64,000 nucleotides of DNA from Pedosphaera parvula Ellin514 (GTDB taxonomy: Bacteria > Verrucomicrobiota > Verrucomicrobiia > Limisphaerales > Pedosphaeraceae), in the NCBI RefSeq assembly GCF_000172555.1, contig NZ_ABOX02000027.1:1-64000 (forward strand), written 5' to 3'. Position numbers and translations under genes: made by a program. Positions within the stretch are counted from its first letter, which is position 1, and the number at the start of each line of letters is the position of its first letter. The notes under the pieces were generated by a model. It was not told where the DNA came from. It saw only the letters and a program-made list of their open reading frames with translations, and did not search any database. Shown in pieces: positions 52,074 through 63,019 of the stretch.

Positions 52074-52961
52074 ATGGCATACGAAATCAAAAAGGGGGGA
52101 GAGCTTGAGGATGAGCTACGCCGTGCGGCGCGGAGGCAGGCTCGATGCGCGGTGAGGCATCTGAAGGAAAGGAATGCGAGGGGAGTTGGAGAGTCCGTTC
52201 ACGAGGCTCGAAAGAATTTGAAGAAGATCCGTGGGTTGATCCGGTTGGTGCGCGCGAACCTGGGGAAGAAGTTTTACAATAAGGAAAATCGATCTTTTCG
52301 GGACATAGCGAAGGTTTTGTCGGCCCGAAGAGATGTCGAGGTTTTGATCAAGACGCTCAAAAAATTTCGATCAGCTCATCGGTTTGCAGCCTCGAATCCG
52401 GCACTGACAAAATTGCACAAATCCTTAATCAAGCAGGAGAAGGAAGTTGCCGGAAAAATGAAGCATGAGAGCAAACAAGTATTGAAAAATCTTAAATCCG
52501 CGCGGCGACGCACAAAGGATTGGCCGATTGGGAAGATCAAGCGATCTGACCTTTGCATTGGCTTCAAGGCAACTTATCGGCGGGGACGCAGGGCCTTTCA
52601 GAAAGCCCGGACCCAACCCAGTCCGGAGAATCTACACGAATGGAGAAAGCGGGTGAAAGATCTTGGATATCACTTCGCGCTGCTCAAGCAGTTTGGTTCG
52701 AAGAGATTGGGTTCCTATTGCACCGATTTAACATTGCTGGGTGATCGCCTTGGTGATGATCATGATCTCGTGATGTTGGCGACGGCTGTGCAAGCTAATT
52801 TGCCTACTCCGCACGAATTCGCCACGATTTCAAAATCAATTGATGCCAGCCGAAAACCATTGCAGAAATCAGTTTTTCGCCTGGGGAAAAAGCTGTATGC
52901 CGAAATACCTAAAACTTTTGTCGTTCGAATAAAAAAGGACTGGGCAAGGCAAAGAAAATAA
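52074..52961 (+). CDS. CHAD-domain protein
   Basis: 295-aa helical protein. CHAD domains bind polyphosphate granules through basic and His-rich surfaces. The signatures occur twice, as in the duplicated CHAD fold: VHEARKNLKKIRGLIRLVRANLG near residue 45 and LHEWRKRVKDLGYHFALLKQ near 190, with LGDRLGDDHDLVMLATAV after. Very basic overall, with many Lys/Arg. The ATG is preceded by AAAGG. No CYTH domain or polyphosphate kinase gene is adjacent; the next plus-strand gene is the potassium transporter. Confidence 0.87.
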   Translation: MAYEIKKGGELEDELRRAARRQARCAVRHLKERNARGVGESVHEARKNLKKIRGLIRLVRANLGKKFYNKENRSFRDIAKVLSARRDVEVLIKTLKKFRSAHRFAASNPALTKLHKSLIKQEKEVAGKMKHESKQVLKNLKSARRRTKDWPIGKIKRSDLCIGFKATYRRGRRAFQKARTQPSPENLHEWRKRVKDLGYHFALLKQFGSKRLGSYCTDLTLLGDRLGDDHDLVMLATAVQANLPTPHEFATISKSIDASRKPLQKSVFRLGKKLYAEIPKTFVVRIKKDWARQRK

Positions 52962-53132
52962 AATCAGTTCAATCGTCACGAAAATGTCACCTGATTTCCA
53001 TTTTGATGGAACACTACGCAGCCAAACTGCTGGATGATAATGTGCATCCTGACACTGATTTACATTTTTCTAGTGTTGCTCACCGCGCGGTTTTGCCGGC
53101 TTAGCCGGGAAAGGCGCGGAGGTTTCGCAGAT

Positions 53133-53288
53133 TTATAAAATCCAGGAGATAAAAACGATCAGGAGAACTGCGAAAAAGAAAAACAGGCCGCTGAGAATTT
53201 TCTTGCCATTTTTCGTGCAGGCAGTGGAGCCGCAGTTCTTGCATTGGGTTAAACTATCAGAAATCCGATGACCGCAATAACCGCACAT
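53133..53288 (-). CDS. 51-aa double CxxC zinc-ribbon protein with membrane tail
   Basis: A short frame not usually reported because of its size. ATG at 53288, stop at 53133. It begins MCGYCGHRISDSLTQCKNCG, giving two CxxC knuckles typical of a zinc ribbon, followed by STACTKNGKK and a hydrophobic helix (ILSGLFFFFAVLLIVFISWIL) to the end. This layout of a zinc ribbon facing the cytoplasm on a single C-terminal anchor is common among small bacterial membrane proteins. The upstream sequence lacks a clear ribosome-binding site. Function unknown. Confidence 0.62.
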   Translation of the reverse strand: MCGYCGHRISDSLTQCKNCGSTACTKNGKKILSGLFFFFAVLLIVFISWIL

Positions 53289-53582
53289 GTTAAAAGATGC
53301 CATAATTCTGAAAATTAGAACGGCTTGGGTTGATATCGTTCAAACTTCCCAAATTCTTCATCCAGAAAATCTTCTGAGCCTTCCGAGATCAGTTGTTTTT
53401 TTGGAAGAAGATCCTTTAAAGGATTTTCGCATACGTGCGAGGAAACTGCAAATTCATGAATTTGAAACTTTGCATGATTTGGTATAAAACTGCCTGTAGC
53501 CTAATGGGTTGCGCGTTGGATTGCCATAGCTCGCTTTGACTTGACAGGCGGGCACTGATAACAGTTTTAGTTAGTTCTTTGT

Positions 53583-53720
53583 CTGCTTAATGGTCTGACC
53601 TGTTCAGGCCAGCGGGGAACCCAGATTTTCCGGTAAAACGGATTGGGGCTTACGGTGCCTGCGGCATCGGGAACACTTAGTGGTTCCAGCCCGACAGCTA
53701 ACCTCGTGTGCGTAAACATT
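53583..53720 (+). promoter_or_regulatory. c-di-AMP riboswitch (ydaO-yuaA class)
   Basis: Conserved blocks of the class appear in order: GCTTAAT (53585-53591), GGGGAACC (53614-53621), GGATTGGGGC (53640-53649), GGGAAC...GTTCC, and the highly conserved 3' block CCCGACAGCTAACCTCGT (53690-53707) followed by GCGTAAAC. The class binds cyclic di-AMP and normally switches off potassium or osmolyte transport and cell-wall genes. It precedes a KimA-like transporter, the classic partner. A TTGACA at 53541 is a possible -35. The stretch 53289-53540 holds no other recognisable feature. Confidence 0.88.
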
Positions 53721-53759
53721 AAGGGCAGGAAGCCTTCCAAGACTTTCTTACCCAAACAG

Positions 53760-53778
53760 AGTGCCTATGGCACTTTTT
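53760..53778 (+). terminator. intrinsic terminator forming the riboswitch expression platform
   Basis: AGTGCC, loop TAT, GGCACT, followed at once by further T residues (53774-53778). Located 40 bp after the aptamer and 26 bp before the transporter ATG, so ligand-dependent read-through control is the natural reading (off-switch, by analogy with the known class). Confidence 0.8.
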
Positions 53779-53803
53779 CCGCAGACCGCGAAAGGTGTGG
53801 TCT

Positions 53804-55639
53804 ATGATTGCCAGTAATACACGGCGTCCCCGCAATGTGGATGCGCCGAGGGCGGCCGCTATTCTTTATGGTGACTGGGGAACCAGCAAGGCATACGTGA
53901 TTGGTCTCGCGTTTGCAGTGGCTGGCTACAGTTCGTTTTGGCTGATCGCCGCCATGTGTTTGCTTACGGCCCTGGTCGGGGTGAATTACATGTCCATCTG
54001 CAAACACTATCCCGATGGCGGGGGAGTTTATGCGAGTGTGCGGCATCGTTCGGAAATCATTTCGATTGTCGGAGCGTTTCTGCTGATTGCTGATTACATT
54101 GTAACAGCGGCCATCAGTGCGTTATCAGCCTTTCAATATCTGGGCTTCGCGCATCCGGAGATTTTTGCCGCGATTGCGATTGCCTTGATCGGCGGTTTGA
54201 ATTTCTTCGGACCGAAGAACACTGCTGGTCTGGCCTTTCTCATCTCGATTCCCACGCTGGTGGTGGTGGTGCTGTTGGGGATTTTTTGTCTGCCACATTT
54301 GGGAACCGCGGTGCACAACCTGCAACCGCTATCAGGAGGCTTTTGGAAAAACTGGAATGGTTTTGTCGGAGTGGTATTGGCGTTGTCCGGGGTGGAAGCG
54401 ATTGCCAATGCGACGGGGGTGATGAAACTGAATCCAGGCAGCACAGATGCGAAACCGTGCGTTTCCAAAACTTCGAGCAAGGCCATTCTCTGGGTGATGA
54501 TTGAGGTTTGTGTCTTCACCGCGCTGCTCGGTTTGGCAATGCATGCTTTGCATGGGCTGCAGATCAACAAGGACGATGTCGATGCTCCGGGTGCGACCGG
54601 GGTGCGGGATTACATGCTGCGTTATATGGCGCAGGTATTCGTGACCGGACCATTTGGACTGGCCGCTGGCCATGTTGCCGGCGTGGTGGTGAGCATTGTG
54701 TTTGGGTTGCTTTTGCTCTCGGCCGTGAATACCGCCATTGTGGATTTGATCGCCATTTCTTACTTGATGTCACGCGATGGAGAGCTGCCAGCCTCTTTTC
54801 AAAAACTGAATAAGTTTGGTGTGCCAAACCTCGGCATCATAGTGGCGACGGTCATTCCGGCGATACTTGTCCTGGCGGTCAAAGATATGGCCGGGTTGGC
54901 GGATCTTTATGCTGTCGGGGTGGTGGGAGCCATCGCGACAAATCTCGGGGCCAGTTCGACAGACAAGAAGCTTGGGTTGGCCAAATGGGAACGAACGCTG
55001 ATGTTCGTTACGTTCCTGATTATGGTGGCGATCGAGATTTCGCTCTTTGCGGACAAGCCGAGTGCGCGGGTATTTGCTGTTACAGTGCTGGCGGTAGGTT
55101 TGATATTACGCGGCCTAGCAAGCGAACATATTCAGAGGAAGAAACTGGCTGCGGAGACAAGCGGAGCTTTTGCGAACACGATCATTCCCACTCCGATTGC
55201 AAAAACTGAGGTCGTTGCTCCATCGCAAACAGCGACTGGCGTCCCCATCATGGCGGCCATTCGAGGATTGGGGAAGACATTGGATTTTGCCATCAATGAG
55301 GCGAAGGAGACGCACCGGCCCCTTTACCTGCTCTTCGTGCGCGCACTGCCAGTGTTGAGCGAGCTCGACCAGACACGGAAGTGGCAGGACGATGACGAGG
55401 CTCGCGAAATTTTTACGCTGGCGAACGCGCGGGCGGAAGGGCATCCAATAATTCCCTGTTATGCCGTAAGCGATTCCGTGGCGGATACAATCGTTGATAT
55501 CGCGGCCACGATGGGAGCGAGCCATCTCATTCTTGGCGCGCCCGAACGCAAAGGGCTCGTGCAGATGTTGCGGGGAGATGTGGTGCGGAAGGTATCAAAC
55601 GATCTTCCGGAAGCCATTCATCTATTGGTTTACGCCTGA
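53804..55639 (+). CDS. KimA-like potassium transporter (APC superfamily)
   Basis: 611 aa from the ATG at 53804, eight bases after AAAGG; a GTG at 53795 is possible. About twelve transmembrane helices (residues 10-450) begin APRAAAILYGDWGTSKAYVIGLAFA and include YPDGGGVYASVRHR and ANATGVMKLNPG. The C-terminal cytoplasmic domain (about 485-611) resembles a universal-stress-protein fold (PLYLLFVRALPVL, ATMGASHLILGAPERKGL), as in B. subtilis KimA (formerly YdaO). The c-di-AMP riboswitch and terminator upstream strongly support potassium uptake. The 3' end overlaps the convergent DUF4855 gene by 18 bp. Confidence 0.86.
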   Translation: MIASNTRRPRNVDAPRAAAILYGDWGTSKAYVIGLAFAVAGYSSFWLIAAMCLLTALVGVNYMSICKHYPDGGGVYASVRHRSEIISIVGAFLLIADYIVTAAISALSAFQYLGFAHPEIFAAIAIALIGGLNFFGPKNTAGLAFLISIPTLVVVVLLGIFCLPHLGTAVHNLQPLSGGFWKNWNGFVGVVLALSGVEAIANATGVMKLNPGSTDAKPCVSKTSSKAILWVMIEVCVFTALLGLAMHALHGLQINKDDVDAPGATGVRDYMLRYMAQVFVTGPFGLAAGHVAGVVVSIVFGLLLLSAVNTAIVDLIAISYLMSRDGELPASFQKLNKFGVPNLGIIVATVIPAILVLAVKDMAGLADLYAVGVVGAIATNLGASSTDKKLGLAKWERTLMFVTFLIMVAIEISLFADKPSARVFAVTVLAVGLILRGLASEHIQRKKLAAETSGAFANTIIPTPIAKTEVVAPSQTATGVPIMAAIRGLGKTLDFAINEAKETHRPLYLLFVRALPVLSELDQTRKWQDDDEAREIFTLANARAEGHPIIPCYAVSDSVADTIVDIAATMGASHLILGAPERKGLVQMLRGDVVRKVSNDLPEAIHLLVYA

Positions 55640-61063: not shown

Positions 61064-63019
61064 ATGAAATCAGAAGAAGTAACAATAAAGCCAGCCGTAG
61101 GTTTGGAGAAAGACGAACTGAATGCGGCAATCACCAGATCCCAAAGTTTTTTGCTCTGCGAGCAGAAACCGGAAGGCTATTGGGTGGGCGAGCTGATGGT
61201 TGATTCCACAATCGTTTCGGACACGATTGCTTATCATCACTGGAACGGCAAGGTGGACCCGGAATGGCAGCGGAAAGCGGTAAATCACATCCTTTCCATG
61301 CAACTGCCGGAAGGCGGTTGGAACATTTATCAGAATGGACCGCCCGAAGTGAATGCGACCATCAAGGCATACCTCGCCTTGAAGCTGGCGGGCATACCGA
61401 TTACCGATCCGCGCATGCTGAAGGCGCGTCAGGTGGCATTGACCCTGGGAGGTGTTCCACGCATGAATACCTTTTCGAAACTTTATCTGGCGCTCCTCGG
61501 GTTATGGCCGTGGAAGTATGTTCCGACCATTCCTTGCGAAGTATTGCTGCTGGGCAAATGGTTTCACGTGAACATTTGGGACATGAGCAACTGGAGTCGC
61601 GCCATGATTGTCCCGCTTGCCATCATTAACCATTACAAGCCGACACGGCCGGTGAAGGTTGATTTAAGCGAGCTCTTCCTGGAAGGGTTTCATGAACGCG
61701 ATCTGGCGTTGCCAAAGGATCCTCAGTCATTCACCTGGAGAAATTTTTTCCTGGGATTGGATCAGTTGCATAAGTTCGCAGAACTGTGGGTGAATGCAGG
61801 AATTCATCCGTTTCGTCGGTTGGCGTTGAAGAAATGCGAGCAATGGATGCTCGAACGCTTCGAAGGTTCGGATGGCTTGGCAGCCATTTTCCCGGCAATG
61901 CTTAACTCACTGATTGCTTTGAAGTCGCTTGGCTATCCGGATGATCATCCCGAAGTGTTGCGGGCCGAGCGTGAGTTAAAGAAATTGGAACATGAAACCA
62001 AGGACACGGTCCGTATTGAACCCTGTTTGTCGCCTGGTTGGGACACGGCCATTGCCGCAATGTGCCTGCGCGAATCGGGGGTTCCCGCCGAACACCCGCG
62101 TTTGAAAAAGGCGGGTGATTGGCTGGTGAATCGTGAAGTTCGTTTCAAAGCCGACTGGCATCACAAAAATCCGGTCGATGTCGAACCGAGCGGTTGGGTA
62201 TTCCAGTTCAATAACAAATGGAATCCCGACCTGGACGATACAGCCATGGTGTTGCTCGCACTCAGGTTGATTCCGACGGACCATCCGCGGCGTCGCGACG
62301 AAGCTTTTCAACGCGGATTGAAATGGCTGCTGGCCTTCCAATGTCGCGATGGCGGCTGGGCGGCCTACGACAAGGATTGCACCAAAAATATTTTGGAAAA
62401 AGTGCCGTTCGCAGATCACAACGCAATGCTCGATCCAGAGTGTGCGGACATAACGGCGCGTGTGCTGGAGTTGTTGGGATTCGAAGGTTATGCGCTCGAT
62501 CATCCGCAGGTGCAGGAAGCGGTGGAGTATTTGCGTGAGCATCAAGAAACTGATGGTTCGTGGTACGGGCGTTGGGGCGTGAATTACATCTACGGCACCT
62601 GGCAAACGTTGCGTGGTTTGTGGGCGTTAAAGATGGATATGAATCAACCGTGGCTCTTGAAAGCTCGAGACTGGTTGGAGAGCGTGCAATTGCCGGATGG
62701 CGGCTGGGGTGAGCGTTGCAACACCTACGATGATCCCGTGTTCAAGGGGCAAGGACCAAGCACGGCTTCGCAAACCGCATGGGCAGTCATGGCGCTTTGC
62801 ACTTTTGGCGATCCCAAACGGCCAAGTCTGGTGCGTGGAATTCAATATTTGATTGAGAATCAAAACGAAGATGGCTCCTGGACAGAGCTGGAGACCACCG
62901 GCACTGGATTCCCGCGCGTTTATTATTTGAAATACGACATCTACCGTAATACATGGCCGCTGCTGGCTATGGCCACCTATCGCAAGATGCTTGATCCGAA
63001 GGAAGTCAGGGTGAAGTAA
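61064..63019 (+). CDS. shc: squalene-hopene cyclase
   Basis: Membrane-associated enzyme cyclising squalene to hopene, the core of hopanoids. 651 aa, in the family range. The catalytic DXDD motif is DLDD at 389-392 in WNPDLDDTAMVL. Repeated QW motifs line the two alpha-barrels (QLPEGGWNIY, QCRDGGWAAYD, QETDGSWYGRWG, QLPDGGWGE, QNEDGSWTE). The MWxxR-like GTWQTLRGLWALK is present. No squalene synthase genes (hpnCDE) are beside it. Ends at a strong intrinsic terminator. Confidence 0.95.
   Translation: MKSEEVTIKPAVGLEKDELNAAITRSQSFLLCEQKPEGYWVGELMVDSTIVSDTIAYHHWNGKVDPEWQRKAVNHILSMQLPEGGWNIYQNGPPEVNATIKAYLALKLAGIPITDPRMLKARQVALTLGGVPRMNTFSKLYLALLGLWPWKYVPTIPCEVLLLGKWFHVNIWDMSNWSRAMIVPLAIINHYKPTRPVKVDLSELFLEGFHERDLALPKDPQSFTWRNFFLGLDQLHKFAELWVNAGIHPFRRLALKKCEQWMLERFEGSDGLAAIFPAMLNSLIALKSLGYPDDHPEVLRAERELKKLEHETKDTVRIEPCLSPGWDTAIAAMCLRESGVPAEHPRLKKAGDWLVNREVRFKADWHHKNPVDVEPSGWVFQFNNKWNPDLDDTAMVLLALRLIPTDHPRRRDEAFQRGLKWLLAFQCRDGGWAAYDKDCTKNILEKVPFADHNAMLDPECADITARVLELLGFEGYALDHPQVQEAVEYLREHQETDGSWYGRWGVNYIYGTWQTLRGLWALKMDMNQPWLLKARDWLESVQLPDGGWGERCNTYDDPVFKGQGPSTASQTAWAVMALCTFGDPKRPSLVRGIQYLIENQNEDGSWTELETTGTGFPRVYYLKYDIYRNTWPLLAMATYRKMLDPKEVRVK

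Follow-up and report, generated by a model that had tools for sequence, protein, structure and literature searches.

The 64,000-nucleotide stretch of the Pedosphaera parvula Ellin514 genome analyzed here (contig NZ_ABOX02000027.1, positions 1 to 64,000 of the forward strand; hereafter, the window) carries, with a probability that we put at roughly 0.85, a genuine c-di-AMP riboswitch that lowers the expression of a K+ importer when the messenger is high. The presence of a switch before the transporter gene is near certain, and the aptamer, the gene downstream of it, the conserved ion-binding residues of the encoded protein and the c-di-AMP cyclase of the genome can all be read from the DNA, from which we infer a mechanism that would run as follows. 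When K+ is plentiful, c-di-AMP would rise, and two c-di-AMP molecules would bind the aptamer and hold its closing helix, upon which either a hairpin at 53760–53778 would stop transcription or a hairpin on the start codon, at 53783–53803, would stop translation. When K+ is scarce, c-di-AMP would fall and the importer would be made.

A search of the whole window with cmscan against Rfam places the c-di-AMP (ydaO/yuaA) riboswitch aptamer RF00379 at positions 53574–53727 of the forward strand, both model flanks included, with 39.3 bits against a gathering score of 38 (E = 1.2e-5), and this is the sole Rfam family above its cutoff in the window. In the subregion 52900–54100, the same family is matched with E = 2.2e-7, with no other match up to E = 1. 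The score of this copy is marginal. When the Rfam structure line is mapped onto the window, the aptamer core, delimited by the first and last pairs of P1, lies at 53584–53712 (+). Merging identical sequences reduced 83 aptamers to 78 distinct ones, and when these are aligned with MAFFT, the window copy deviates in none of the 47 columns that are conserved to at least 90% in the other 77.

For covariation, we used the Rfam structure with P2 lengthened by five pairs taken from the predicted fold. Across 42 aptamers, 93.7% of the cells are paired, a percentage that is favored (the covariation less so) by the fact that the structure comes partly from the window's own fold, and slid controls of the same structure fall to 29–44%. 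Two-sided change is seen in 18 of the 31 pairs, compared to a shuffle mean of 11.3, with none of 500 shuffles reaching the observed number, and in 114 cells, compared to a shuffle mean of 39.0. Support is poor for two pairs: at the outermost position of P1, 24 of 39 cells are unpaired, as are 32 of 42 at the second position of the short helix 4. An earlier reading of this DNA from its letters alone (the sequence-only reading) had assigned the element to the ydaO class, and this assignment is borne out by the significant covariance-model match in the whole window, the intact conserved columns and the covarying helices. Binding of c-di-AMP by this aptamer is thus expected from its class membership. 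We also note that the 5′ flank TTCTTTGT (53574–53583) recurs in most aptamers of the window type, outside the P1 helix of the model, which suggests that it takes part in another pairing, the 3′ flank being a possible partner. A CHAD-domain gene (52074–52961) lies upstream on the same strand.

The candidate expression platform is a terminator-like hairpin, AGTGCC-TAT-GGCACT followed by a T tract (53760–53778, +), with a 6-bp stem at 53760–53774 and five T at 53774–53778, located before the ATG at 53804. This hairpin has a folding energy of −7.2 kcal mol–1 alone and −9.7 kcal mol–1 with flanking pairs, its pair probabilities are 0.98–1.0 when the leader is folded to 53800, and a terminator-like site of ≤ −6 kcal mol–1 arises in 6 of 1000 shuffles of 53728–53806. 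The sequence-only reading had proposed a terminator here, and for the window copy the hairpin and T tract are indeed present; however, counting the window itself, only 3 of the 34 window-type leaders have such a site, compared to 1.1 ± 0.9 (mean ± sd) in shuffles, and a generic terminator scan of 53000–54000 reported none (shuffle mean 1.4), we think because it extended the stem into the T run. With 3 of 34 leaders, we reject a terminator conserved across the family: termination is not the conserved mode of the family, and OFF control by termination is proposed, plausibly, for this copy, where transcription termination is our first choice for the output.

In a transcript ending at 53772, CTTTGT (53577–53582) is predicted to pair with ACAGAG (53756–53761), a 6-bp pairing that shares two bases with the 6-bp stem of the terminator. 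No strong antiterminator pairing was found in the predicted folds of the window leader. In the OFF-type aptamer described in PMC9337991, the right shoulder of P1 and the pseudoknot can pair with the left shoulder of the terminator; inspection of the window folds by eye gave no convincing match to an antiterminator of this type, built from the P1 right shoulder and the terminator left shoulder. No sigma-70-like promoter was found in 53000–54000.

A second hairpin, AGACCGCG-AAAGG-TGTGGTCT (53783–53803, +), has an 8-bp stem of −9.4 kcal mol–1 and reaches the ATG with its 3′ arm; its AAAGG loop resembles a ribosome-binding site, such that this hairpin is a possible platform for translational control. 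The riboswitch could thus be real but act on translation (or via Rho), with this hairpin hiding or showing the ribosome site, which we consider a serious possibility, if short of a likely one. In its favor are the rarity of terminator-like sites in the family, the placement of the window hairpin, and the leaders of 20 more distant relatives (19 labeled as Verrucomicrobiota or a group of it, and one, L097, as Acidobacteria), in which a different hairpin, lacking a T tract, is conserved a short way upstream of the start and shows covariation in 5 of its 10 pairs. It is less easily reconciled with a window hairpin and T tract of a kind seen so rarely in shuffled sequence, and the AAAGG, lying in a loop, may stay accessible. 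The transporter gene has two in-frame starts, ATG 53804 and GTG 53795, and we take the former because five of six set-A1 relatives start earliest at the matching M.

From its Pfam domains, profile, fold and ion residues, the gene downstream (53804–55639, +) encodes a probable K+ importer of the KUP family, of what we call its YGD/Usp branch, with 611 amino acids and likely acting as a K+/H+ symporter. Its Pfam domains are AA_permease_2 and Usp (PF00582, 39.8 bits), the latter match covering residues 491–599 (55274–55600, +), which form a Usp-like cytosolic domain that might bind c-di-AMP. The Kup family PF02705 has no match at 0.001 in the protein and none in its genome. Against solved structures, the single sequence has no match at 0.01, whereas the KimA-type protein L040 matches KimA with 6e-63. 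A profile of 7 close relatives likewise did not find KimA, returning two chance matches only, whereas a profile of 37 window-type relatives places Bacillus subtilis KimA (6s3k) first, with 2e-10, followed by Usp proteins at 0.012 and 0.077 and then by chance-level rows, so that the link to KimA depends on a sufficiently deep alignment and on the fold. Profile-profile comparison of the transporter family gives probabilities of 91% for KimA-type proteins and 95% for Kup.

An AlphaFold model of the transporter (mean pLDDT 83, pTM 0.68) has KimA at ranks 1–3 both in Foldseek (best 8b70, 3.9e-17) and in VIA-align (Z 43.3, rmsd 11.7 over 520 residues), and we read the large rmsd of the model as the tail being placed differently. 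The next matches in VIA-align are amino acid transporters (Z 37), and so the fold alone would not decide between K+ and amino acids; the residues do. That the gene instead encodes an amino acid permease of the APC superfamily, with the switch serving osmolyte or amino acid balance rather than K+, is suggested by the Pfam name AA_permease_2 and by these runners-up, but we consider it improbable, as KimA comes first by profile, Foldseek and VIA-align alike, the ion and proton residues of KimA and Kup are invariant, and sister riboswitches stand before Kup, KimA-type and TrkH genes.

The residues in question are KimA D36, Y43, D117, T121, S125, E233 and Y377, which correspond to D24, Y31, D97, T101, S105, E198 and Y369 of the window protein, and all seven positions are identical in 37 of 37 window-type and 5 of 5 KimA-type sequences. 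They are likewise the same in 8 of 8 Kup sequences, save S125 (4 Ser, 4 Thr). The position of KimA T230, a residue that is nonessential in KimA, is Ser in the window-type proteins, while KimA Y118 is kept in 36 and N237 in 35 of 37. In window-type proteins, Y22, G23 and D24 are invariant, and L21 is nearly so. The HMM alignment from the 37-sequence profile sets in late at TM1, with W25 falling on KimA Y43; three MAFFT settings put D24 and Y31 on the residues that the KimA-type match aligns with KimA D36 and Y43. In KimA, D36, Y43 and E233 are reported as essential and Y377 and T121 as setting the affinity, with D117 unneeded for uptake, and the VFGD/IYGD motif of KUP members is described as absent (PMC6994465). 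The position of R337 in the c-di-AMP loop of KimA is A330 in the window protein; it is Arg in 2 of 37 window-type proteins, and Arg is absent from it in 5 of 5 KimA-type proteins of the order. According to PMC10284832, Arg337 is important for high c-di-AMP affinity but not necessarily for relaying inhibition.

In a tree, the window-type, KimA-type (5 sequences) and Kup proteins are each monophyletic, with support of 0.75, 1.0 and 1.0, respectively. Because of the residues, the YGD motif and this tree, we assign the transporter to a separate branch within the KUP family, and not to KimA. The KimA-type label of the sequence-only reading accordingly stands at the level of the KUP family and its ion-binding residues, but not for KimA proper, from which the window protein is set apart by its separate group and Kup-like YGD. 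Two paralogues of the transporter in the same genome (C11 and C58, with 46% and 44% identity) are not among the genes behind its three riboswitches. Somewhat tentatively, and at not quite even odds, we propose that these proteins form a third KUP-family branch, with YGD and a Usp tail, that is common in Verrucomicrobiota and controlled by c-di-AMP at the RNA level and perhaps, via the Usp tail, at the protein level, and that in some relatives the riboswitch stands before a porin-importer pair, so that a single messenger would govern how K+ enters through both membranes of a Gram-negative cell.

The 7.41 Mb genome encodes one DAC domain, in a 281-aa protein of CdaA type (DAC plus CdaA_N), whose gene lies between pterin-binding (folP-like) and phosphoglucomutase-type (glmM-like) genes on one strand. 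Four DHH matches fall in three genes: a DHH-DHHA1 protein that is a candidate c-di-AMP phosphodiesterase, a DHH-CBS-DRTGG-DHHA2 protein, and a third that we take as a candidate RecJ. The domain of the 7TM-HD (PgpH-type) phosphodiesterase, PF07698, was not found in the genome. The cyclase and phosphodiesterase that the sequence-only reading led one to look for are thus represented by the one CdaA-type DAC protein and the DHH-DHHA1 candidate, but not by a PgpH-type enzyme, and the combination of c-di-AMP with hopanoid traits that it described is matched by this cyclase and by a squalene-hopene cyclase encoded at 61064–63019 (PF13243, 2e-141). A DAC cyclase is found in 27 of 29 genomes with the riboswitch and in 27 of 29 without, and its co-occurrence with the riboswitch consequently adds nothing, the cyclase being equally common in both groups.

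RF00379 is matched three times in this genome, and it speaks against our preferred reading that the window copy is the weakest of them (39.3 bits, compared to 60.5 and 54.6) and that the other two precede not K+ transporters but SPFH/Band_7 genes (L005:5315-7150 and L006:5771-7246, both on the minus strand). One of the SPFH genes is followed by a gene for a histidine kinase (L006:4412-5608, −) that contains DUF4118, a domain also found in KdpD. At a distance of 6.7 kb from one of the SPFH riboswitches, the genome encodes a TrkA_C-containing protein that resembles Na+/H+ exchangers.

Across 58 genomes of the order and nearer, RF00379 occurs in 29, with 45 matches, 43 of them above the cutoff. 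Among the 44 with readable downstream DNA, 25 precede genes for K+ transporters or APC proteins, namely, 11 Kup, 7 window-type (the window included), 6 KimA-type (the 5 of set A2 and L014, which is 65% identical to L040) and 1 TrkH, while 17 first genes form a single BLAST cluster of SPFH proteins, 16 of them with a Band_7 match; the other two are L012, cut by the contig end, and L050, behind a match below the cutoff. In 194 genomes drawn over the phylum, by a search whose filters lose weak matches, RF00379 was found in 11 (10 above the cutoff), our own included. It was found in all 7 other genomes of the family that were searched, in 4 of them before the orthologous gene. We therefore give very little credence to the idea that the window RNA is a decayed aptamer that has lost c-di-AMP binding, as might be argued from a score that is 1.3 bits above the cutoff and the lowest of the genome's three, since the absence of any deviating conserved column means that a low score is not decay, and the other genomes of the family that were searched carry the element.

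The survey of the transporter itself covered 80 relatives from named contigs, kept of 255 confirmed, and RF00379 lies near 39 of these (9, 14, 13 and 3 per batch of 20); in 33 it ends 44–109 nt before the transporter, and in 6 a single gene intervenes and the distance is ~1.5 kb. The remaining 41 have no RF00379 above the cutoff in the flanks examined, and two contigs (L098 and L099) end too near to the gene for a judgment. Among relatives below 66% identity, 20 of 22 are without RF00379. The five nearest orthologues (L057, L061, L058, L132 and L059; 76–79% identity) come from Pedosphaera and other Verrucomicrobiota assemblies, and an orthologue with a riboswitch is present in Chthoniobacter flavus Ellin428 (L103). 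In all six cases of an intervening gene, Pfam identifies it as a BBP2 β-barrel porin (L092:589-1998, L094:589-1998, L096:519-1997, L104:586-1998, L108:559-1998 and L135:547-1998), and the six porin genes end on the first base of the transporter gene or immediately upstream of it; the porin-importer pair looks like an operon. A BBP2 gene occupies the corresponding position in L080, where the flank examined has no riboswitch. Other elements were also seen near the transporters. Fluoride riboswitches (RF01734) lie on the opposite strand in three relatives (L078:1574-1649, L090:4234-4313 and L100:62-137), and 16 more distant transporters without a riboswitch are each preceded by a short open reading frame bearing the motif E(R/K)(T/A)G(M/T)LDA (L113, L117-L119, L121-L125, L127-L129, L131, L133, L134 and L136).

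The balance of c-di-AMP and K+ has been studied mostly in Firmicutes. The introduction of PMC6488665 already lists Verrucomicrobia among the phyla in which c-di-AMP riboswitches are predicted before ktr, trk, kdp and kup, and the occurrence in this phylum is therefore less surprising than the sequence-only reading held. The same source reports that in Bacillus thuringiensis c-di-AMP promotes termination and falls under K+ limitation; DacD proteins are listed for Verrucomicrobia (PMC6741144); and ydaO-yuaA is described as regulating varied transporters in PMC3766115, where the part seen has no mention of Verrucomicrobia. Thus, neither the class nor its ligand nor its occurrence in this phylum is new (PMC6488665, PMC9337991 and PMC6741144). 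Literature searches joining the c-di-AMP or ydaO riboswitch with porin, flotillin or SPFH listed no paper that was on this subject by its title and the start of its abstract, and for the c-di-AMP riboswitch with Chthoniobacter, Pedosphaera or Verrucomicrobiota, the riboswitch term appeared in none among the matches listed. Taken together, the observation is confirmed and its earlier interpretation is partly supported; the riboswitch is an ordinary member of its class, and less ordinary are the branch to which the transporter belongs, the pairing of porin and importer, and the SPFH genes. The same logic of c-di-AMP and K+ thus appears, with a transporter branch of its own, in soil Verrucomicrobiota, including Chthoniobacter flavus Ellin428, and the porin-importer pair and SPFH genes suggest that control by c-di-AMP may, in cells with two membranes, extend over the envelope beyond K+ importers.

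Compared to known systems, the window has the sequence blocks and helices of the ydaO/yuaA riboswitch (RF00379) and its place before a K+ importer gene, but differs in a terminator that is not conserved among orthologues and in a second hairpin on the start codon. A hairpin and T tract lie downstream of the aptamer, as they do in the kdp leader of Bacillus thuringiensis, although the kdp terminator is located 143 bp before the start codon (PMC6488665), compared to ~25 nt in the window. With Kup (PF02705), the transporter shares the YGD-x-GTS motif of TM1 and the D, Y, T, E and Y ion residues, but it has no PF02705 match and carries a Usp tail, and at KimA positions 118 and 237 the window-type proteins carry Tyr and Asn, compared to Gly and Ala in all 8 Kup proteins of the order. 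Compared to KimA of Bacillus subtilis (6s3k, 8b70, 8b71), finally, its identity is ~17%, with a Kup-like YGD, a tail that is of Usp type by Pfam, Ser in place of T230 and no R337, but the two are alike in an APC fold with a cytosolic α/β tail, in their K+/H+ residues, and in riboswitch control.
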